52,188 bases of DNA. It comes from Bacteroidota bacterium (GTDB taxonomy: Bacteria > Bacteroidota > Bacteroidia > Bacteroidales > B39-G9). The notes beneath the pieces are model-generated. The model did not search any database and was not told the origin of the DNA. It worked only from the letters and a program-made list of their open reading frames with translations. The stretch lies in assembly GCA_015222055.1 (NCBI GenBank), contig JADFUR010000032.1, positions 1 through 52,188 of the forward strand, written 5' to 3'. Every line of letters starts with the position of its first letter. Positions within the stretch are counted from its first letter, which is position 1. Below, in pieces: positions 709 to 9,658 of the stretch. Made by a program: the position numbers and the translations under genes.

Positions 709-2919
709 TTATTCTTTTATAATTTTATAAGTATGAGACGATTTATCTCCCACTATATTAAGATAATAAATTCCAAGATTAAAATTACTTATGTCAATTT
801 GTTCTATGCCCAATTGATTTTTTGACTTTTCCAGAATTAATCTTCCATCAGTACTAAATACCCTTATCATTAAATTATCCTCTGCTAAACCAGAAATATA
901 TATTTTATAATCAGTTGGATTAGGGAAGATTTGGATATTATTAGATAATAATTTTTCTACAGCAGTTGTGTTACAAGCTGAGCACGAATTAAAACATACA
1001 GCTTCAAGGCTTGTGTTTGTTTCTGGCACTACAATATATCTGTTATTGTTGATAATACAATCATCGGGAATTGCCTCCTCCCATTGGTCGCCATTTACGA
1101 ATTTATATTCTACTATTTCTCCTGCTGTTAACTCAATAGTTTTTGAATAAATTGATCCGTTTGCTTCAATCGGTTCAGTACTGTTCCAATTGTTAAAACT
1201 TCCACGCAGAAATACACCCTGTTGTGAAACGGTTTCGTTTTGCATATCAACCTGAAAAGTTAGATTTGTAGTTTCTAATTCCTGTCTTTCAGCAATACGA
1301 ATGTCATCAAACCAAAATTTCATTCCTTCAAAACTGTGATATTCAGTAGTAATTTGAAAATTCCAAATCGCCTTCCAATCAAATTTACCTTCAGGATCGT
1401 ACCATTCTCCTTCGTCCCATGCTCCTTGTTCTACAAAATCAGATAGGGGTATTTGTATTAAATGCCAGTTACCATCCCACGATGCCATTGTCTCGTCAAT
1501 GTCGTGTACTATTCTCCATGGATGATCTTCCGGATCATCGGTATCGGTATCTATAAAACGGACATTAAACTTTGCACCAGGAGTATCACCCTTAACTCTG
1601 AATTCGAGAACATAATCATTTGCAATTAAATTAGATAGGTCTCTATAAGGCTCAAACCGAAAGTCAATACAAGCCCAAATTGGCAAGTCTTCAATATTAA
1701 TACAAAATTTTCCCTCGTAAGTATCTTCTTCGCAATAAAAATTATAATTTTTTTCCTCTGTAGATACCCATGTATAAATAAATTGTGTTGCATAATCGTT
1801 GTAAATATCGAATTCTGATGTTTCAGGTTTAACAACAAACTCGCTTTGGGCTTGAGTATTCAACCCCATTGCTTCAACAAGGGGAATATTCAAATCATAG
1901 TCAAAAAGTTTATAGGTTCCGTATTCAAAAAGCCCCCAATAACGTGTATAACCGTGCATCGACCATGAGATACCATTTTCTTCGAGGCTGGTTCTCAAAA
2001 CTTCATACCAATAAACTCTGTCGTCAGGATTACTATATTTATCATCGGCTCCAAATTCTCCACACCAAAGGGGCACATTTCTTTGTTTTTTAAAAGTTGC
2101 TGCCGATTCAACTAAGTCCTGCATTGATTTAGCCGTACCTTCGTTCACATAGTTATTATAATCAATCTCATATTGGCTTCCTATATAACTGCTCGGCATT
2201 TCAGGCATCAGTTCTGGGTCGTAAGGGAAAGGAACTCCTTGAAGTTCATCCAGAGAAACATGATGGGCTCCCTGATGAGTAAATAGGAATGGATGGTAAA
2301 AATGAAATGTGTAAATTAGATTATCATCTTCATAATTTGGCAAATCGTAAAGATGTTTTATACCGCCCCATGCTGGAGTTACTATAATGGTATGAGTTTG
2401 GTCTATCGATCTTATGGTATCAATAAGTTCTCCTTGAAGCACTCCCCAATCTTTCACCACATTATAACCCGGTTCATTTGCTAATTCATAGAATATATTG
2501 CTTGGTCTGTCTTTATAGTGTTGAGCTATTTGTGTCCATATATTAATAAATTTATCCCTGACTGAGGTATCGTTATTATAATCGAAACCTGACATGTTGG
2601 TTATAATCAGATTAATTCCCTCCTCTTCAGCAATATCAACATACTGATCGAGCAGATATAAAAACAAAGGATCCAGTTGATAATTGATTTCATCAACAAA
2701 CATATTAGCCATATTTATTGGAAGCCTCACCTGATTAATCCCCAATTTTTTTACATTAATAAAATCCTGCCTTGTATAATAATTAAAATGAATGTCAGTC
2801 GGAGAATTTGCTTCAAAGGCTTGGGCAAAACCAACGCCTTTACTAAAAGGTGTATTCTGTGCTATTATTGACGTTGCACTTAAGATTATAAATACTAAGA
2901 TTATTTGAAATTTTCGCAT
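709..2919 (-). CDS. Secreted GH5-family glycoside hydrolase with T9SS sorting domain
   Basis: This is a 736-residue secreted glycanase of the GH5 (cellulase/mannanase) type. The start is set at 2919, giving a signal peptide (MRKFQIILVFIILSATSIIAQ); an upstream in-frame start would put a charged extension before it. The catalytic domain spans about residues 25-355. The likely acid/base Glu149 is in YELANEPG and the likely nucleophile Glu288 is in WCGEFGAD. A beta-sandwich carbohydrate-binding-like domain (about 365-545) and a second domain with GVFLRGSFNNW (about 555-645) follow. The last 75 residues begin IQIFPNPTDYKIYISG and end in a short Lys-Glu tail, typical of a type A T9SS sorting domain, so the enzyme is probably exported to the surface or medium. 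The gene stands alone between two recombinase remnants, which hints at acquisition. The substrate (cellulose, mannan or another beta-glucan) cannot be read from sequence. Confidence 0.88.
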   Translation of the reverse strand: MRKFQIILVFIILSATSIIAQNTPFSKGVGFAQAFEANSPTDIHFNYYTRQDFINVKKLGINQVRLPINMANMFVDEINYQLDPLFLYLLDQYVDIAEEEGINLIITNMSGFDYNNDTSVRDKFINIWTQIAQHYKDRPSNIFYELANEPGYNVVKDWGVLQGELIDTIRSIDQTHTIIVTPAWGGIKHLYDLPNYEDDNLIYTFHFYHPFLFTHQGAHHVSLDELQGVPFPYDPELMPEMPSSYIGSQYEIDYNNYVNEGTAKSMQDLVESAATFKKQRNVPLWCGEFGADDKYSNPDDRVYWYEVLRTSLEENGISWSMHGYTRYWGLFEYGTYKLFDYDLNIPLVEAMGLNTQAQSEFVVKPETSEFDIYNDYATQFIYTWVSTEEKNYNFYCEEDTYEGKFCINIEDLPIWACIDFRFEPYRDLSNLIANDYVLEFRVKGDTPGAKFNVRFIDTDTDDPEDHPWRIVHDIDETMASWDGNWHLIQIPLSDFVEQGAWDEGEWYDPEGKFDWKAIWNFQITTEYHSFEGMKFWFDDIRIAERQELETTNLTFQVDMQNETVSQQGVFLRGSFNNWNSTEPIEANGSIYSKTIELTAGEIVEYKFVNGDQWEEAIPDDCIINNNRYIVVPETNTSLEAVCFNSCSACNTTAVEKLLSNNIQIFPNPTDYKIYISGLAEDNLMIRVFSTDGRLILEKSKNQLGIEQIDISNFNLGIYYLNIVGDKSSHTYKIIKE

Positions 2920-2964
2920 TTTTTTTATTTTATTAATAATAAGTAGGTCTCTAAAATATGCTTG

Positions 2965-3133
2965 CCAACACTTCAATAAAACACCACAGCGTGACTTATA
3001 TCCATTATTTGTTTAACTATTTCAAAGTTAGATAAAAAAAATAGATAACCAAAATATCAATCAGATTTTGAATTTTAGAAATGTATGATGTTGAAATTTT
3101 TGTATATAACTCTGTCGTTTTTGGCTTGGCATA
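2965..3133. repeat. Direct repeat copy 2, flanking the GH5 gene
   Basis: This partner of 268-436 has the same length and orientation and is about 88% identical by eye. Similarity stops abruptly after the bases encoding the Y-(T/A)-K-P-K segment of the recombinase, although the recombinase reading frame continues in this copy to 3247. Confidence 0.85.
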
Positions 3134-3247
3134 GTCTAATAAAGATTGTATGTGTTTTAGATAAACGACTTTTTCGAGTAAATGATTTGCAAATGAATGT
3201 CGTGTGTACTTCGCTCTTGCAGATTTGTTATCTGAAAGGCTATTCAA
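3017..3247 (-). pseudogene. Tyrosine recombinase C-terminal fragment (copy 2)
   Basis: This 76-codon open frame encodes the C-terminal catalytic part of a XerD/phage-integrase-type recombinase. It contains TRHSFANHLLEK (box II Arg and His), IQSLLDYAKPKTTELYTK with the tyrosine nucleophile, and the usual tail. The second catalytic His, normally in LLGH, is replaced in LLDY. A full enzyme has about 300 residues, so the N-terminal three quarters are missing. The homologous block begins at CTTTC near 3238, as it does in the fragment at 51793. Confidence 0.75.
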
Positions 3248-3252
3248 ACAAA

Positions 3253-3277
3253 AAGACTTTAAACTTTAAACTTTATA
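3253..3277 (+). repeat. TTTAAAC heptamer repeat
   Basis: Two TTTAAAC units and a TTTATAAC unit occur in tandem. They run into the 3' end of the MATE gene on the opposite strand and supply its stop codon at 3273. Confidence 0.5.
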
Positions 3278-4616
3278 ACTCGTTAGCTTTTACAACAACT
3301 TTCTTTTTCCATTTTCCACTTGAGTAATAAATAAAGTTTCCACACATGCCAATAGCCCAAGCAGCAGGTATAGCCCACCAGATGCCTTCAACACCCATAA
3401 AATTTGAGAAATAATATGCTAAAGGAATTCTAACAATCCACAGGGAAATTAAAGTTACAAACATTGGGATAAGCGTTGCTCCAGCTCCACGTAAAACACC
3501 ATTTATAGTAAACATTGTTGAAAATAATATGTAAAAAGGAGTTACAATAATTAAATATTTAGCTCCAATGTTTATTACATCAATGTCATTAGTAAAGAAT
3601 CCTATTAAATAGTGTCGGAAAGGAATAATGAAAACAGCTAAAATAATACAAATTAAACCAGACATTAATAAAGTTGAATTAAAGCCTTTTTTTACTCGCT
3701 CAATTTTATTTGCACCAAGATTTTGCCCAACAAAAGTTGATAATGCCATAGAATAATTCATGACGGGTATTTTTGTAAAAGCTTCAATGCGACTTGCAAC
3801 AGTGTAAGCTGCAATAACACTAGTGCCAAAACCACTAACAATTCCCATTAATGCCATCATGCCAACGCCAACTAATGTTTGCTGTATTCCTGAAGGTAAA
3901 CCTATTTTTATACTTTTTTTAAAGATGTTTTTATCGAAACTAATTTTTGAGAATGATAAATGTATAATCTGATGAAATTTATTGAGATAGATTATTATTG
4001 AGATAAAAACTAAAGCTTGAGATATAACTGTTGCTAATGCAGCACCTGCAACTCCCATTTTAAAAACAATTATAAACAATAAATCGAGTATAATATTTAG
4101 AATTGTTGAGGCAATAAGAAAATATAAAGGTGTTTTTGAATCTCCCAAACCTCTTAAAATGGAGTTTGTGCCATTAAATCCAAAAAAGAAAACAATGCCT
4201 GATAAAAAAATTTTTAAATAAGTTGATGCTTGTGGTATAACATTTTCAGGTAATTTAATTAATCGAAAAATATCGTCGCTAAAAATAATGCCAAGCGTAG
4301 TTACAATTATTGCTGCAAAGAAAAAGAAAATATACATTGTGTCAATTGCCTTTTTTATGCTTTTATAGTCTTTTGCACCAAAATATTGAGAAATAATTAT
4401 TGTAAAGCCACTGCCTATGCCAAATATTAAAGAGATTAATGCAAAGATAACAGGGAATGATGCTCCGACTGCTGCCAGGGCTGCTTTGCCAATAAATTGT
4501 CCAACAATAATGCTATCAACTACATTATATAGTTGATGAAAAATACTGCCTAAAATCATTGGTGTGGCAAACTGCCTTATCAATTTACTCTCTTTCCCGC
4601 TTGTTAAGTCTTTCAT
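3273..4616 (-). CDS. MATE family efflux transporter
   Basis: This 447-residue integral membrane protein has about twelve transmembrane helices in two homologous halves. It opens with a cytoplasmic stretch followed by FATPMILGSIFHQLYNVVDS, the conserved first helix of the MatE family. MATE proteins export cationic drugs or metabolites in exchange for Na+ or H+. The length is normal for the family. The start lies 5 bases after the stop of the upstream ECF/THEP1 fusion gene, so the two are probably co-transcribed. The substrate cannot be told from sequence. Confidence 0.9.
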   Translation of the reverse strand: MKDLTSGKESKLIRQFATPMILGSIFHQLYNVVDSIIVGQFIGKAALAAVGASFPVIFALISLIFGIGSGFTIIISQYFGAKDYKSIKKAIDTMYIFFFFAAIIVTTLGIIFSDDIFRLIKLPENVIPQASTYLKIFLSGIVFFFGFNGTNSILRGLGDSKTPLYFLIASTILNIILDLLFIIVFKMGVAGAALATVISQALVFISIIIYLNKFHQIIHLSFSKISFDKNIFKKSIKIGLPSGIQQTLVGVGMMALMGIVSGFGTSVIAAYTVASRIEAFTKIPVMNYSMALSTFVGQNLGANKIERVKKGFNSTLLMSGLICIILAVFIIPFRHYLIGFFTNDIDVINIGAKYLIIVTPFYILFSTMFTINGVLRGAGATLIPMFVTLISLWIVRIPLAYYFSNFMGVEGIWWAIPAAWAIGMCGNFIYYSSGKWKKKVVVKANEL

Positions 4617-4621
4617 TAAAA

Positions 4622-6349
4622 TTATGCAGTTTTAACATTTGTTATTTTATTGAACACTTCATTTACATTACATAAATTGATGTTAAATATTTCATAATTT
4701 GACAGATCCCATTTTTTAATCACTTCTGTTATAATCCTTTTTCTTACAACCCAAATCATTGGTGCAGAGTTGCCGGCTAATAAATTATTAATTTCATTAT
4801 ACCAACCTTTTCCTGACAGTTCTAAAGGGCCAATCTCATCAATAACAATTAAGTCAGAGTTTGTAATATTTTTGTTGTTTAGAATATCAGCACCAAAATT
4901 AAATCCTTCGGGATTAAAATAATACGAGCCTAATTTCATCCAATTATCATGCTTTTCCTTGGTTATTATTTGCATGGTTTTATCATTTTGCAAATTTATT
5001 AAATTATAACCTTCTAATTTTTTTTTGTTGATTATAGCTTCGGCAATAAAACCATTAATATTAAAACCCTTATTTATTAATATCGACACAAGATTTTTTA
5101 CGAATGTAGTTTTTCCCTTATGTTCATCTTCAGTTACTATGTATATTTTTTTATTATTTAAACTCTGTGATTGAAATTCTTTAAGTAATTCGTCTGCTTG
5201 AAAAATAATATTGGTGAGAAATTTTAAAGGGTTTTTAAAAATTTTTTTTGAATTTGAGATATTTGATATTATTGATGGTAAAGCTGAAAATGCTAAATTT
5301 AATGATAAGTATAATTGCAAGAATCCTTTTTTTAACATTATTGCTTTTATTATTGGGTTGCGCATTTCAACGCTTATAGCAGAAAATCCAATAATAATAA
5401 TTAAAGCTCGAAGAACCATTTCAAATGCTGCATTTACACCCGCAAGGCTTATTGGAAATTGATTTTGCGTCCCATTCCAGAAAATTACGGTTAGTGCAGA
5501 GATGATAAATAGTTGTACCCATAATCCGGTTTTCTTTATTATTTTTTTTGAAACATCATATTTAAATAAACAAAAACCAATATATAGAATGGCAGGAATA
5601 ACAGAAAAATAATGAATGTTGCTGTTGATAATTAAAATACTACTTGCGATTAGTAATAAATGCAATAAGAGTAAACCTATTGAATATTTTTTTTTTGTAT
5701 TATTATTGATAATTTTTTTATGAAGAGAAAATTGAACTTTATTAAACGGAATTGTTGGCTTTTTTGATGTAAAACATTTATTACCAATAAAATAACCAAT
5801 TAATGCAGCTGCTAAACCAAGTATATTATATAATATAACGATTAACAAGACTAAATAAATGGGGCTTAAATTTTTAATGTTTAACAAATTCAACGAATAA
5901 TAATAAAAGTTTGATGCAACAGTAACAATATCAAATCCATATTTAACAAGAAGGGTAATTAATTTGTGAATTAATATACTTGATATTGCAAACATGCCAC
6001 CTATGGCATAAGCAAAAATATTTTTGCCGAAAAAAAGAATAAATAGCTCCAATAAAATTGCTTCGTACATAATACCAATCATTGGGCCTAAAATAATCAA
6101 GCTGGGAGATATTGATTTCATCAAAGCACAAATTATTCCCGAACGCCAAAACAAACCTTTTTCATGCCAAATTTGTGAAAATGCTACGAGTAAACTAACT
6201 CCAAGAATTGCAAGAAGTGTTCCTGCAAATGGAATGCGTAAGTTGTGTAAAAAACTCCCCAAAATAATTTCAATAGATGCCCAAAGGCTACCAATAACTG
6301 AGGCCTTCAACCAGGTGTAATTTATTTTGAGAGAATTTTCTATTAACAT
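4622..6349 (-). CDS. Membrane protein: ECF-transporter-like domains fused to a THEP1-type NTPase
   Basis: This 575-residue protein appears to have three parts. Residues 1-190 hold about six membrane helices, starting LWASIEIILGSFLHNLRIPF, resembling the substrate-binding S subunit of ECF importers. Residues 220-395 hold further helices, including FEMVLRALIIIIGFSAISVE, which resemble the EcfT/CbiQ coupling subunit. Residues 401-575 are a soluble P-loop domain of the THEP1 (NTPase_1) type, with a Walker-A-like TEDEHKGKTT near 406-415 and a Walker B LIVIDEIGPLEL near 500-511. The first glycine of the classical P-loop is missing, but the GKTT core is intact. The N-terminal assignments rest on helix pattern and a few motifs. 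The transported compound is unknown. The downstream MATE gene is 5 bases away, and the thioredoxin-like gene is divergent. Confidence 0.65.
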   Translation of the reverse strand: MLIENSLKINYTWLKASVIGSLWASIEIILGSFLHNLRIPFAGTLLAILGVSLLVAFSQIWHEKGLFWRSGIICALMKSISPSLIILGPMIGIMYEAILLELFILFFGKNIFAYAIGGMFAISSILIHKLITLLVKYGFDIVTVASNFYYYSLNLLNIKNLSPIYLVLLIVILYNILGLAAALIGYFIGNKCFTSKKPTIPFNKVQFSLHKKIINNNTKKKYSIGLLLLHLLLIASSILIINSNIHYFSVIPAILYIGFCLFKYDVSKKIIKKTGLWVQLFIISALTVIFWNGTQNQFPISLAGVNAAFEMVLRALIIIIGFSAISVEMRNPIIKAIMLKKGFLQLYLSLNLAFSALPSIISNISNSKKIFKNPLKFLTNIIFQADELLKEFQSQSLNNKKIYIVTEDEHKGKTTFVKNLVSILINKGFNINGFIAEAIINKKKLEGYNLINLQNDKTMQIITKEKHDNWMKLGSYYFNPEGFNFGADILNNKNITNSDLIVIDEIGPLELSGKGWYNEINNLLAGNSAPMIWVVRKRIITEVIKKWDLSNYEIFNINLCNVNEVFNKITNVKTA

Positions 6350-6420
6350 GCAATGTTTTAAAGTAATATTTTTTACTTTTACAGATTAAATCTACAAAAG
6401 TATTAATTTAAAATTTCCTA

Positions 6421-7527
6421 ATGATGAAAAAAATATTTTTTATTGCAATTATTGGATTGCTATTGTTCTCTTGTACAAATAATAAAGATAATTTTACAAT
6501 TAATGGGGTTGTTAATGGTGTTGATACAGGCAAAGTTTTTTTGCAGGCAGTTGTTGATAATAAGCTCCAAACAATTGATACCGTAGAAATTAATAAAGGC
6601 AATTTTACTTTTACAGGAACTGTAACTGATCCTGAATTATATTTAATTAAAATTACCAATAAGACAGATTTGTTACCTTTTTTTGTTGAAAATTCTGAAA
6701 TTTCAGTAAGAATAAACCCAGATAGTATTGGTGATGCAATTATTGAAGGTTCTCAATCACAAGAAGTCTTCCATTCATTTTCAAAAGGAGTTGAGGGGTA
6801 TCAGAAAAAAGAAAATAATATTTATGCTCAATATGAAAATATTAAGGAAACAGCAAGTAAAGAAATGCTTGATAATCTTGAAAAACTTTATGATACAATA
6901 TATCAAGAGCAACAAGTTTTTGTGAAAGACTTTGTTTTGGAAAATAATACTTCAGCTGTTTCTGCATACATAGTTTTACGTCATCTTATCTACCAATTAG
7001 ATATTGATTCTTTACAAAAAATGACAAATAGCCTTGCTCCATCATTATCAGAATCAAAGTATGTTAAAAAATTATATGAAAGAATTGAGTTGCTTAGATC
7101 AGTTGCAATTGGTCAGTCTGCTCCTGAGATTACTTTGAACGACGTTGACGGCAATCCTTTTTCATTATCTTCATTAAAAGGCAAATACGTTTTGATAGAT
7201 TTTTGGGCTTCATGGTGTAGCCCTTGTCGTGATGAGAATCCTAATGTTGTGAAAGCATATAAAATGTTTAATAGCAAAGGGTTTGAGGTTTTTGGTGTTT
7301 CTTTAGATAATAAAAAAGAAAATTGGGAAAAAGCAATTAAAGATGATCGTTTAACCTGGACGCAAGTATCTGATTTGTTAGGATGGAAATGTGCAGCTGC
7401 AAAAGTTTATGCTGTAAATTCAATTCCTCATTCTGTATTAATTGACAAAGAAGGAAAGATTATTGCGAAAGACCTTAGAGGTGATGATTTAACCAAGAAA
7501 TTAACTGAAATATTTGAAGAAAAGTAA
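6421..7527 (+). CDS. Thioredoxin-like lipoprotein (TlpA/ResA type with DUF4369-like N-terminus)
   Basis: This 368-residue protein opens with a lipoprotein signal ending LLLFSC (Cys18), so it is expected to be membrane-anchored in the periplasm. Residues 25-115 form a small beta-rich domain of the DUF4369 type common in Bacteroidota. A helical linker follows, then a thioredoxin fold from about 228 with FWASWCSPCRDENP (redox pair Cys266/Cys269) and the later cis-proline segment SIPHSVLIDKEG. The likely role is thiol-disulfide reduction of exported proteins. It is divergent from the ECF/THEP1 gene across 71 bases. ATGATG gives two start choices one codon apart. Confidence 0.88.
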   Translation: MMKKIFFIAIIGLLLFSCTNNKDNFTINGVVNGVDTGKVFLQAVVDNKLQTIDTVEINKGNFTFTGTVTDPELYLIKITNKTDLLPFFVENSEISVRINPDSIGDAIIEGSQSQEVFHSFSKGVEGYQKKENNIYAQYENIKETASKEMLDNLEKLYDTIYQEQQVFVKDFVLENNTSAVSAYIVLRHLIYQLDIDSLQKMTNSLAPSLSESKYVKKLYERIELLRSVAIGQSAPEITLNDVDGNPFSLSSLKGKYVLIDFWASWCSPCRDENPNVVKAYKMFNSKGFEVFGVSLDNKKENWEKAIKDDRLTWTQVSDLLGWKCAAAKVYAVNSIPHSVLIDKEGKIIAKDLRGDDLTKKLTEIFEEK

Positions 7528-7580
7528 AAAAATAATTGAAGAGTTTCTGAATTAAATTTTATAGGCTATAAATACAGATA

Positions 7581-7648
7581 GCGCAAGCGTCCTCGCTTGT
7601 GCTTTTATAAAAGGAATAAGTAATCAAAGGTACAAGCGAAGACGCTTG
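7581..7648. repeat. Pair of inverted REP-like hairpins
   Basis: Hairpin 1 (7581-7602) has 9-base arms GCGCAAGCG and CGCTTGTGC, with one G-U pair, around TCCT. Hairpin 2 (7633-7648) has arms CAAGCG and CGCTTG around AAGA. The second is close to the reverse complement of the first, as in bipartite REP (BIME) units. They lie between the thioredoxin-like and HD genes. Confidence 0.6.
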
Positions 7649-7660
7649 CCCCATTTTAAG

Positions 7661-7691
7661 AACTTTGAACTTTAAACTTTTACCTATTATG
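7661..7691 (+). repeat. Heptamer array ending in the HD gene start codon
   Basis: After AAC come TTTGAAC, TTTAAAC, TTTTACC and TATTATG in register, and the last three bases are the ATG at 7689. The arrangement is the same as at nqrC. Confidence 0.6.
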
Positions 7692-8252
7692 ATTCCAACT
7701 CGTGAAGATGCTTTTGCACTTCTAACTAAATACACAAAAAACAAAAGTCTAATAAAACATGCTTTATCTGTTGAAGCTACAATGCGATATTTTGCAAAAA
7801 AGAATAATGAAGACGAAGAAAAATGGGGAATAATTGGTTTAATTCATGATCTTGATTATGATATGTATCCCGAAGAACATTGTAAAAAAACGAAGGAAAT
7901 ATTAATTGAAAATAATTGGCCTGAAGATTATATTAGAGCAGTTATGAGCCATGGTTGGGGAACAGCAACCGATGTTGAACCCAAAACAATGCTTGAGAAA
8001 ACCATTTATGCTATTGACGAACTTACCGGTTTAATTACAACAACAGCCCTTGTACGACCATCGAAAAGCTTAATGGATCTTACCGCAAGATCTGTAAAAA
8101 AGAAATGGAAAGTTAAAAAATTTGCCGCCGGAGTTGATAGGTCAATAATTGAAAATGGTGCAAAAATGCTCGGTGTTGAAATAACTGATTTAATTACTGA
8201 CACAATTATGGGAATGCGTGTAATTGCAGATGAGATTGAATTAAACGGTTAA
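7689..8252 (+). CDS. HD-domain hydrolase
   Basis: This 187-residue soluble protein is of the HD superfamily. It has an early His in IKHALSVEATMRYFA, the metal-binding HD pair in GLIHDLDYD, and further conserved His and Asp residues in VMSHGW and YAIDELTGLI. These proteins are metal-dependent phosphohydrolases acting on nucleotides or phospho-compounds; the substrate is unknown. ATG 7689 (MIPTREDAF) is chosen over a TTG at 7665 because the extra residues would be encoded entirely by the repeat array. Confidence 0.85.
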   Translation: MIPTREDAFALLTKYTKNKSLIKHALSVEATMRYFAKKNNEDEEKWGIIGLIHDLDYDMYPEEHCKKTKEILIENNWPEDYIRAVMSHGWGTATDVEPKTMLEKTIYAIDELTGLITTTALVRPSKSLMDLTARSVKKKWKVKKFAAGVDRSIIENGAKMLGVEITDLITDTIMGMRVIADEIELNG

Positions 8253-8289
8253 TTGCGATTGAAATTAATTGTGAAATTTATTTCATTAT

Positions 8290-8372
8290 TGATTTTTAAA
8301 AAAACGGTTAAATTGTTTATTCCATTAGATAATTGAAGAATAACAATTTAACCATTTAACAATAATATGTAT
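8290..8372. repeat. AT-rich AACAATTTAAC-type repeat tract
   Basis: Degenerate units of TTAAATTGTTTATT and AACAATTTAACCATTTAAC lie between the HD gene and the convergent T9SS plug gene. Similar units occur at 17810, 18041 and 36243. No terminator hairpin is obvious. Confidence 0.4.
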
Positions 8373-8380
8373 TACAATAT

Positions 8381-9658
8381 TTATCTAACAACCGAATTAA
8401 CAATTGAATATCCTATTAATTCGTCGTAGTTTGAACTAAAGTCGCGATAATAAACAGATATTGAATAATCATTTTCAGTTTCAAAATGACTGCCTTCAAT
8501 AAAAGTATCGTCAATTTCATTGCTATTATTTTTTACAAATGCATATTCATAGTCATAATATCCTTGTTTCAAAAGCATTTTTAATTCATACATTTTTCTT
8601 TCATAATTGTATATCATTTTATTTTGCTTTGTGCAATTCCAATTTGATAGTTGACCAAAAACATACAAGTTCCCATCAATAAAAGGTTGCTCAAAAGGTA
8701 ATGTGAAATATACATACACATAATCTGCATCTAACTCATCGCCGTGCCCGTCAACATTTTTTATTATATATCTGCCGTTTAAATCTTTATTAAAAAAATA
8801 TCGCAGAAAAGTTCGTTTCCTATCAGTCGCCAATTCAATATGATAATAAGGTTCAATATATTGGATTGTATTTATATATTCTGTTTTATATTTTAATGTT
8901 TTTATATCAAAACTTCTATATTCGTTACCTCCAGAAAACACGTTGTTTTCATCATAATCATAAATCAGAATATTGTCTTTAATAAATAATGGTTTAAGAG
9001 TTTTAATTGCATTATCATCTCTATTGTTTTGCTTAATAATAATTTTTAAGCTGTTAAAAGGATCTTCAATTGGAAAATCGTTGTGGATTATTGAAAAATC
9101 AATTTCATGGCTTGTGTCGTAATATTCAACTAAGCTAGGTTTTTTTACAACAGCATTAATATTTACCTGTTGCTCTAAAATGGAAAAACGTCTCATGAAA
9201 ACTATACTTTCTTTATTGTAATCCTCATAAACCTTTAGAATATAATTGCCAGATAGTTTTAAACGAATGTCGTTATTCGGTATTGTTAAAGAATAATGGG
9301 TGTATTTAAATGTTGTATTAATTGAAAAGTCATAATCATTAATTGGATTGTCGTTAAACCCTTCAATATAATCGAAAGGCATAATATTTGATTCTGTCCA
9401 GTCTGAATTACAATGTATTATTGTGTACGAATAATTATTTGTTGTGCTGTCTAAATCATCAAAACTTAATTTTAAAATATCGTTGCTGTTGAGATTAATT
9501 AATGGATAAGATAATTCCCAACCTTGTTTATAAAGCAACACCGTTTTAATATTTTTTTTATTAATTTCGTTTTTGTAAACAAAATTAATACTGTCGTCTG
9601 ATTTGCAGTTTAGTGCAGAAAGAATAATTAAAAAAAAGAATATTAAATTTTTTTGCAT
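8381..9658 (-). CDS. Type IX secretion system plug protein (DUF5103 family)
   Basis: This 425-residue exported protein matches the DUF5103 / T9SS plug family in length and layout. An N-terminal signal sequence ends in SALNC, possibly an atypical lipobox. The characteristic segments GWELSYPLINLNSNDILKLSFDDL and YSYTIIHCNSDWTES follow, then beta-sandwich domains, and a C-terminal starch-binding-like fold (about 325-400) contains NLYVFGQLSNWNC. The family protein is thought to close the SprA translocon channel at the outer membrane during T9SS export. This fits the GH5 protein with a T9SS tail at 709-2919. It is a single gene on the minus strand. Confidence 0.85.
   Translation of the reverse strand: MQKNLIFFFLIILSALNCKSDDSINFVYKNEINKKNIKTVLLYKQGWELSYPLINLNSNDILKLSFDDLDSTTNNYSYTIIHCNSDWTESNIMPFDYIEGFNDNPINDYDFSINTTFKYTHYSLTIPNNDIRLKLSGNYILKVYEDYNKESIVFMRRFSILEQQVNINAVVKKPSLVEYYDTSHEIDFSIIHNDFPIEDPFNSLKIIIKQNNRDDNAIKTLKPLFIKDNILIYDYDENNVFSGGNEYRSFDIKTLKYKTEYINTIQYIEPYYHIELATDRKRTFLRYFFNKDLNGRYIIKNVDGHGDELDADYVYVYFTLPFEQPFIDGNLYVFGQLSNWNCTKQNKMIYNYERKMYELKMLLKQGYYDYEYAFVKNNSNEIDDTFIEGSHFETENDYSISVYYRDFSSNYDELIGYSIVNSVVR

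Follow-up and report, generated by a model that had tools for sequence, protein, structure and literature searches.

Energy-coupling factor (ECF) transporters use two ABC-type ATPases, and their S components have a six-helix fold, represented by PDB 5edl. The protein described here, which is encoded in a stretch of 52,188 nucleotides from a Bacteroidota genome (the window), shares this fold in its N-terminal ~200 residues. Unlike the ECF S components, with which it has no match at the sequence level, its S-like domain is fused to THEP1 and is found in a molybdenum cofactor (Moco) context, and the NTPase of the chain is THEP1 instead of an ABC-type ATPase. THEP1 (PF03266; Aquifex aeolicus 1ye8) has the same fold and motifs as the C-terminal domain, but the version in the window sits on a membrane protein and has Moco genes beside its homologues. 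The 2005 paper on the THEP1 structure, in its accessible text, left the function open (PMC1079890). The molybdate/tungstate ABC importers ModABC and WtpABC are also linked to molybdenum use, but they are unrelated proteins: the window protein has no ModB-family ABC permease match, and full-score ModB co-occurs with only one of the 46 genomes that carry the protein (carriers). MobB is likewise a P-loop NTPase found beside MobA, but the THEP1 domain of the window protein scores below the MobB cut-off (PF03205; 13.3 bits, cut-off 26.6).

How Moco crosses membranes has been described, in the available text of one paper, as an open question for C. elegans and animals obtaining Moco from dietary bacteria (PMC9793310). 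According to the accessible portions of two other papers, molybdopterin uptake may be among the pathways served by some outer-membrane proteins of type 11 secretion (PMC12282271), and "molybdenum cofactor transporters" are mentioned for a fungal genome in a review (PMC13315312). Searches of the full-text literature, in which subscription journals are thinly covered, turned up neither this protein nor any bacterial importer of Moco at the inner membrane, and a description elsewhere is possible. We consider that the protein is probably an inner-membrane uptake protein for Moco (Mo-molybdopterin) or bare molybdopterin, for the reasons given below.

Architecture of the fused membrane protein

The gene is a single open frame from an ATG at 6349 to a stop at 4622, and the 118 contigs of its own genome contain a single match to it. 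The first-pass annotation had divided the chain into an S-like, a CbiQ-like and a THEP1 block, and this division was borne out by an S-component fold, a second membrane block and THEP1. An AlphaFold2 model of the full chain, which was built with 68 aligned homologue rows (mean pLDDT 85.4, pTM 0.75), has helices at residues 11-194, a low-confidence joint at ~211-217, further helices at 224-397 and an alpha/beta domain from residue 402.

Table 1. Features of the S-T-THEP1 gene and its downstream neighbour, in window coordinates
Feature	Position	Strand	Basis
Whole gene, 575 aa, S-like, T-like and THEP1 parts on a single chain	4622..6349	minus	ORF, Pfam, homologue alignment, AlphaFold2 model
S-component-like membrane domain, residues 1-198, six long helices	5756..6349	minus	model, structure match, conservation, stand-alone S homologues
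Second membrane block, residues 218-395, weakly EcfT/CbiQ-like	5165..5698	minus	model, hhalign, conservation
THEP1 / NTPase_1 domain, residues 400-575	4625..5152	minus	Pfam, structure match
Walker A, TEDEHKGKTT at residues 406-415, with Glu for the first Gly in the window's genus	5105..5134	minus	homologue alignment
Walker B region, residues 499-507, D504 and E505 invariant	4829..4855	minus	homologue alignment, conservation
MATE-family exporter directly downstream, 5-base gap	3273..4616	minus	ORF list, Pfam, neighbour comparison

Residues 1-395 matched no Pfam family at E <= 0.5-1, and searches of PDB sequences with the two membrane halves gave no useful E-value. In the structure comparison proposed earlier, residues ~1-190 matched an S component and the C-terminal block matched THEP1. 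The membrane model matched the ECF S component 5edl better than any other entry (VIA-align Z 12.8, 169 residues aligned, rmsd 4.6), and with the full-chain model this entry had a Z of 12.5. With Foldseek, the same entry had a probability of 0.99-1.00 and weak E-values of 0.11 (full model) and 0.31 (membrane model), and the next unrelated match, an ammonia monooxygenase subunit, reached Z 10.7; therefore, the evidence for an S component is at the level of the fold. The Foldseek lists for the whole and membrane models consisted mostly of unrelated helical transporters, and EcfT was not listed, which excludes nothing. Across 68 rows of the S-like block, R69 and S83 were conserved in 68, W13, W23, E27, H35 and N36 in 67 each, K78 in 66, and E96 and K129 in 64. 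Judged from the alignment, these near-invariant polar residues would suit an anionic ring ligand.

The second membrane block and EcfT/CbiQ are alike in their position after the S domain and in a short local profile similarity. When residues 218-395 were compared by hhalign with CbiQ/EcfT of the same order, the E-value was 0.018 and the probability 2.6%. The score of 21.9 was the best in a comparison that included 12 other families, 2 reversals and 8 column shuffles, of which the next best scored 18.9. No match to CbiQ/EcfT (PF02361) was obtained for this block in Pfam or among PDB sequences. Thus, the earlier "CbiQ-like" assignment rests on a weak likeness, and the profile comparison does not prove homology. 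Within the block, R314 is invariant, and E328 and N331 are near-invariant.

In the C-terminal domain, Pfam NTPase_1 was matched at residues 404-570 (E 2.3e-25, 89.8 bits, cut-off 23.9), and the fold is that of THEP1 (1ye8, Z 16.8; 2i3b, Z 16.6). The Walker A loop had been called atypical, which is right in a narrow sense. Glu stands where 72 of the 77 rows with this stretch have the first Gly, and the canonical GxxxxGK[ST] is absent from the window protein, but GKTT is intact and the Glu is confined to the window and its two closest relatives (L051 and L052); Ser is found at this position in L112 and L119.

Distribution and fusion state

When a single sequence was used as the query, no relatives were found, whereas an alignment as the query did find them. 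A scan of GTDB contigs yielded 429 relatives, and the best 80 of these 429, which were kept as named loci, are mostly from Bacteroidota, with single records titled KSB1, Neomarinimicrobiota, Elusimicrobia, Ignavibacteriales and Chlorobiota. Of 60 relatives, 26 matched, G024 and G050 by the THEP1 part only. The membrane protein is carried by 46 of 149 sampled genomes of the order, and the counts in this work rest either on the 80 named loci or on this sample, because seven of 20 further loci proved, by length, to lie on contigs already represented among the named ones. The carriers comprise 30 with frames of fused length (558-629 aa), 13 with frames of 400-468 aa that are without THEP1, and three with incomplete copies, and 17 of the 21 first aligned relatives are full S-T-THEP1 chains. 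Therefore, an assembly artefact and a chance fusion of the halves were both rejected. An S-component match is present in the membrane part, and many genomes have the two halves either on one chain or as neighbouring genes. A separate THEP1 gene was identified in six of the 13 non-fused carriers (G012, G019, G043, G058, G072 and G118), and in G043 and G058 the THEP1 gene overlaps or adjoins the membrane gene; in the other seven, no separate THEP1 gene was found in the stretches around the gene. One of the three incomplete copies (G053:C80:49370-50438) is a membrane-protein gene broken by seven stops, in a genome that has no PF00384 match at E <= 1e-20, yet MoaC and MoeA remain.

The S domain also occurs alone. 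G024 and G125 encode membrane proteins of 208 and 213 residues (stand-alone S) directly before MobA, and the pair precedes an operon with a molybdoenzyme of 1241-1244 aa, which we read from the gene order as nitrate-reductase-like, with a THEP1 gene near by. In a third form, found in G019 and G135, the gene order is THEP1, S-only, XdhC-MobA, FeS protein and MoCoBD enzyme. A profile of three S-only proteins, when searched against the 149 whole genomes (E <= 0.001), retrieved only its own three members, the protein of G135 and seven proteins of carriers, and the motif G[SA][LV]W[AG]xxExxxGxxxH is common to the stand-alone S proteins and the window protein. These loci indicate that the S domain accompanies molybdoenzymes, together with THEP1 and MobA, even where the second membrane block is missing. 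In locus L136 (5110-16521; G024, MoaC-less), genes for the stand-alone S, MobA, an MFS protein, the nitrate-reductase-like operon, a TonB receptor and THEP1 lie in the same direction.

Molybdenum cofactor genes and riboswitches beside homologues

The gene neighbours link the gene strongly to the molybdenum cofactor. Among 855 neighbour ORFs of the 80 named loci, 16 of the 17 hits of a MobA profile were at the +/-1 positions (p 4e-12), which make up 147 of the 855, and genes for DUF364/DUF4213 and for Nitro_FeMo-Co were immediate neighbours in 8 of 8 hits each; these counts describe position rather than an unbiased rate, since the profiles were partly or wholly built from such neighbours (for MobA, 8 of 15 profile members). 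The family names were borne out by Pfam. Among 69 adjacent same-strand genes (69 of the 70 in the 80 loci were scanned, with the 2034-aa L108 left out), 11 were MobA-like, eight Nitro_FeMo-Co and six DUF364. Some of the MobA-like genes appeared by eye to be closer to MocA (L109, L121, L129 and L139). The available text of PMC2954201 proposes a derivative of flavin or pterin as the substrate of DUF364. At several loci, a 746-aa molybdopterin oxidoreductase lies downstream, with FeS, NrfD-like, YedE-like and rhodanese-like proteins, where the names other than Pfam hits were assigned by eye. In locus L042 (3592-10198; G025, MoaC-less), genes for a TonB receptor, DUF364/DUF4213, the S-T-THEP1 protein, MoeA and a MogA-like protein lie in the same direction. 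MobA, the molybdoenzymes and the Moco riboswitch point to the molybdenum cofactor, which the first-pass annotation had missed, rather than to an unknown vitamin or metal.

No Moco gene adjoins the window's own copy. The first-pass annotation had taken the closeness of the MATE exporter as a hint that the two proteins handle a shared class of compound. The closeness is real, but the neighbour was seen only in the window's genus (the window, G001 and G002), and thus a shared substrate was rejected, and the exporter is probably not part of the system. Elsewhere in the window, a protein of the GH5 cellulase type, which also has carbohydrate-binding domains and a Por secretion tail, is encoded at 709-2976 on the minus strand.

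The Moco riboswitch (Rfam RF01055) was found in two of the 49 named loci scanned, L072 and L124, in both cases directly upstream of the gene and on the same strand. In L072 it lies at 8709-8839 (69.7 bits, E 2e-14), the MobA frame ends at 8735, the gene starts at 8974, and downstream of the aptamer there is a terminator-like hairpin with a T run. The hit in L124, at 8790-8914, is near the threshold (38.0 bits, gathering 36) and ends 86 bases upstream of the first residue matched, in a gene whose start codon is uncertain. The two hits align poorly with each other in sequence. The Rfam scan covered these 49 of the 80 named loci, five further loci and the window; no further RF01055 was found in these stretches, and the window gave no Rfam hit at all. 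The small number of loci with the riboswitch, and its absence together with that of a Moco gene at the window's own copy, count against uptake.

Carriers without MoaC

MoaC was found in 67 of the 149 genomes. Fifteen of the 46 carriers are without MoaC, of which 13 are at least 90% complete and 11 are also without MoeA, and the best ModB/WtpB-type hits among the 15 do not surpass E 1e-17; the WtpB-like hits tracking MoaC have E-values of 4e-28 or better. With a cut-off of E <= 1e-35, 14 of the 15 have a match to PF00384, and among all MoaC-less genomes carriers account for 14 of the 20 with such a match versus one of the 62 without (p 2.4e-10). At a looser E <= 1e-20, the corresponding numbers are 15 of 27 versus none of 55 (p 1.7e-9). 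The looser level was rejected as proof of a molybdoenzyme, and the cut-off was set at 1e-35, after the only match of one carrier (G017) proved to be NuoG-like. This MoaC-less carrier, whose sole PF00384 match is NuoG-like, counts against uptake. Locus L150 (1818-5516) encodes a protein of 1232 aa that combines 2Fe-2S, pyridine-nucleotide oxidoreductase and NuoG-like domains and is nevertheless scored as a molybdopterin oxidoreductase. Ten of the 14 matches were inspected as genes, and nine were of the 746-aa oxidoreductase type, while that of G058 was of a different type with a Molydop_binding domain; the match in G118 is a 531-aa fragment at a contig end.

The membrane protein is missing from six MoaC-less genomes in which a molybdoenzyme match is present. 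Two of them, G024 and G125 (both 99% complete), have the stand-alone S beside MobA, the molybdoenzyme operon and THEP1 described above. The other four, G014, G016, G022 and G050, are less complete (88, 61, 70 and 89%) and gave no hit, which counts against uptake. The same is true of G081, G102 and G108, which are carriers with MoaC and have no PF00384 match at E <= 1e-35, a search that covers PF00384 enzymes and not those of the xanthine-oxidase type. On a tree of 29 carriers, which took in 13 of the 15 without and 16 of the 31 with MoaC, the presence of MoaC switches at least 5 times (the best tree has 10 such changes) and shows no clustering, so that either the combination arose repeatedly or MoaC was repeatedly lost. 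The gene is not restricted to salvagers, as MoaC is present in 31 of the 46 carriers, and a WtpB-like permease accompanies it in 27 of the 31.

Searches for MoaA (PF06463) and MoaE (PF02391) did not separate the groups. MoaE was recognisable in only 10 of the 67 genomes with MoaC, and these bacteria may use a divergent molybdopterin synthase or another enzyme in its place. A supply of molybdenum for nitrogenase was dropped as an explanation, as none of the 12 genomes with a nifD-profile match is a carrier.

Proposed function and alternatives

In the proposed uptake of Moco or molybdopterin, the N-terminal S-like domain would bind an anionic pterin at the outer face, and the second membrane block would couple this domain to the cytoplasmic THEP1, which could use NTP to drive release or to hold the arriving cofactor. 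The adjoining MobA, or a MocA-like relative, would then attach the nucleotide, and the molybdoenzyme would receive the cofactor. In some genomes, a TonB-dependent receptor encoded next to the gene may serve the outer membrane. Carriers without MoeA would need Mo-molybdopterin itself, while the MoaC-less carriers in which MoeA is present (G025, G036, G118 and G138) could use bare molybdopterin. We infer the direction of import, the exact substrate (Moco, molybdopterin or a nucleotide form), the energy source and the role of the second block from this combination of features. In such uptake the protein would most likely work like an ECF S component, yet by the features compared here it is not a strict ECF transporter.

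A non-transporting protein, that is, a membrane-anchored factor for Moco handling or insertion in which a MobB-like NTPase on a membrane scaffold works with MobA, would fit the adjacency of MobA, the weak MobB match of the THEP1 domain and the retention of the gene in genomes with MoaC. However, it would leave unexplained the source of Moco in the MoaC-less carriers as well as the S-component fold and the near-invariant polar residues within its helices, and we regard it as unlikely.

Import of molybdate or tungstate with an unusual NTPase, after which MoeA would insert the metal, is likewise improbable, although several observations are in its favor. Moco riboswitches are known upstream of molybdate transporters, ModE-like HTH genes and TonB receptors are found near some homologues, and MoeA and a MogA-like gene adjoin in G025. 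In addition, homologues of DUF364 have been linked elsewhere to molybdate/tungstate transport, according to the accessible text of PMC2954201. However, most carriers with MoaC already own the WtpB-like permease, and the 15 carriers without MoaC cannot make molybdopterin by the known route and mostly are without MoeA, so that an imported metal would be useless to them. Furthermore, the ligands of S-component folds are organic vitamins.

A conventional ECF-type importer of another vitamin or metal, which would borrow ABC ATPases, agrees with the S-component fold and the weak T-like signal. We consider it very unlikely, because the window's genome and 43 of the 46 carriers have no CbiQ/EcfT, the 25 families listed for the 69 adjacent genes of homologues do not include an ABC ATPase, and the neighbours point to Moco. 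Export of Moco or molybdopterin, for envelope enzymes or partners, is hardly credible even though many of the linked enzymes look periplasmic (twin-arginine-like N-termini, by eye), since the MoaC-less carriers have nothing to export and the riboswitch, if attenuating, would lower expression when Moco is abundant.

The preferred reading of the protein as an uptake protein for Moco or molybdopterin would let bacteria that are unable to build Moco still run Moco-dependent enzymes. If it is correct, it explains genomes that encode molybdoenzymes without MoaC, it predicts cofactor sharing in communities, and it makes the passage of the oxygen-sensitive Moco through membranes testable on a bacterial protein. 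It would also offer a role for THEP1, an NTPase family that is also found in humans, and it suggests that S-component folds can work with a non-ABC NTPase. A broader proposal is made only tentatively: the protein may be a bacterial inner-membrane Moco importer in which the S-like domain captures Moco and THEP1, instead of ABC ATPases, drives transport, in which case entire lineages that lack Moco synthesis would depend on this salvage route and the THEP1 family would gain a first physiological role.

In the window's genome, the route would be a supplementary salvage, since a moeA-moaC cluster and a region with a WtpB-like permease are present. In this region (L152; G000:C57:14000-30000), genes for a ModE-like HTH protein, a solute-binding protein, a 767-aa TonB receptor, two further proteins, the WtpB-like permease and a 352-aa protein at the position of the ATPase lie in a row at 1168-9642; this is probably an operon for molybdate/tungstate uptake that includes an outer-membrane receptor of its own.
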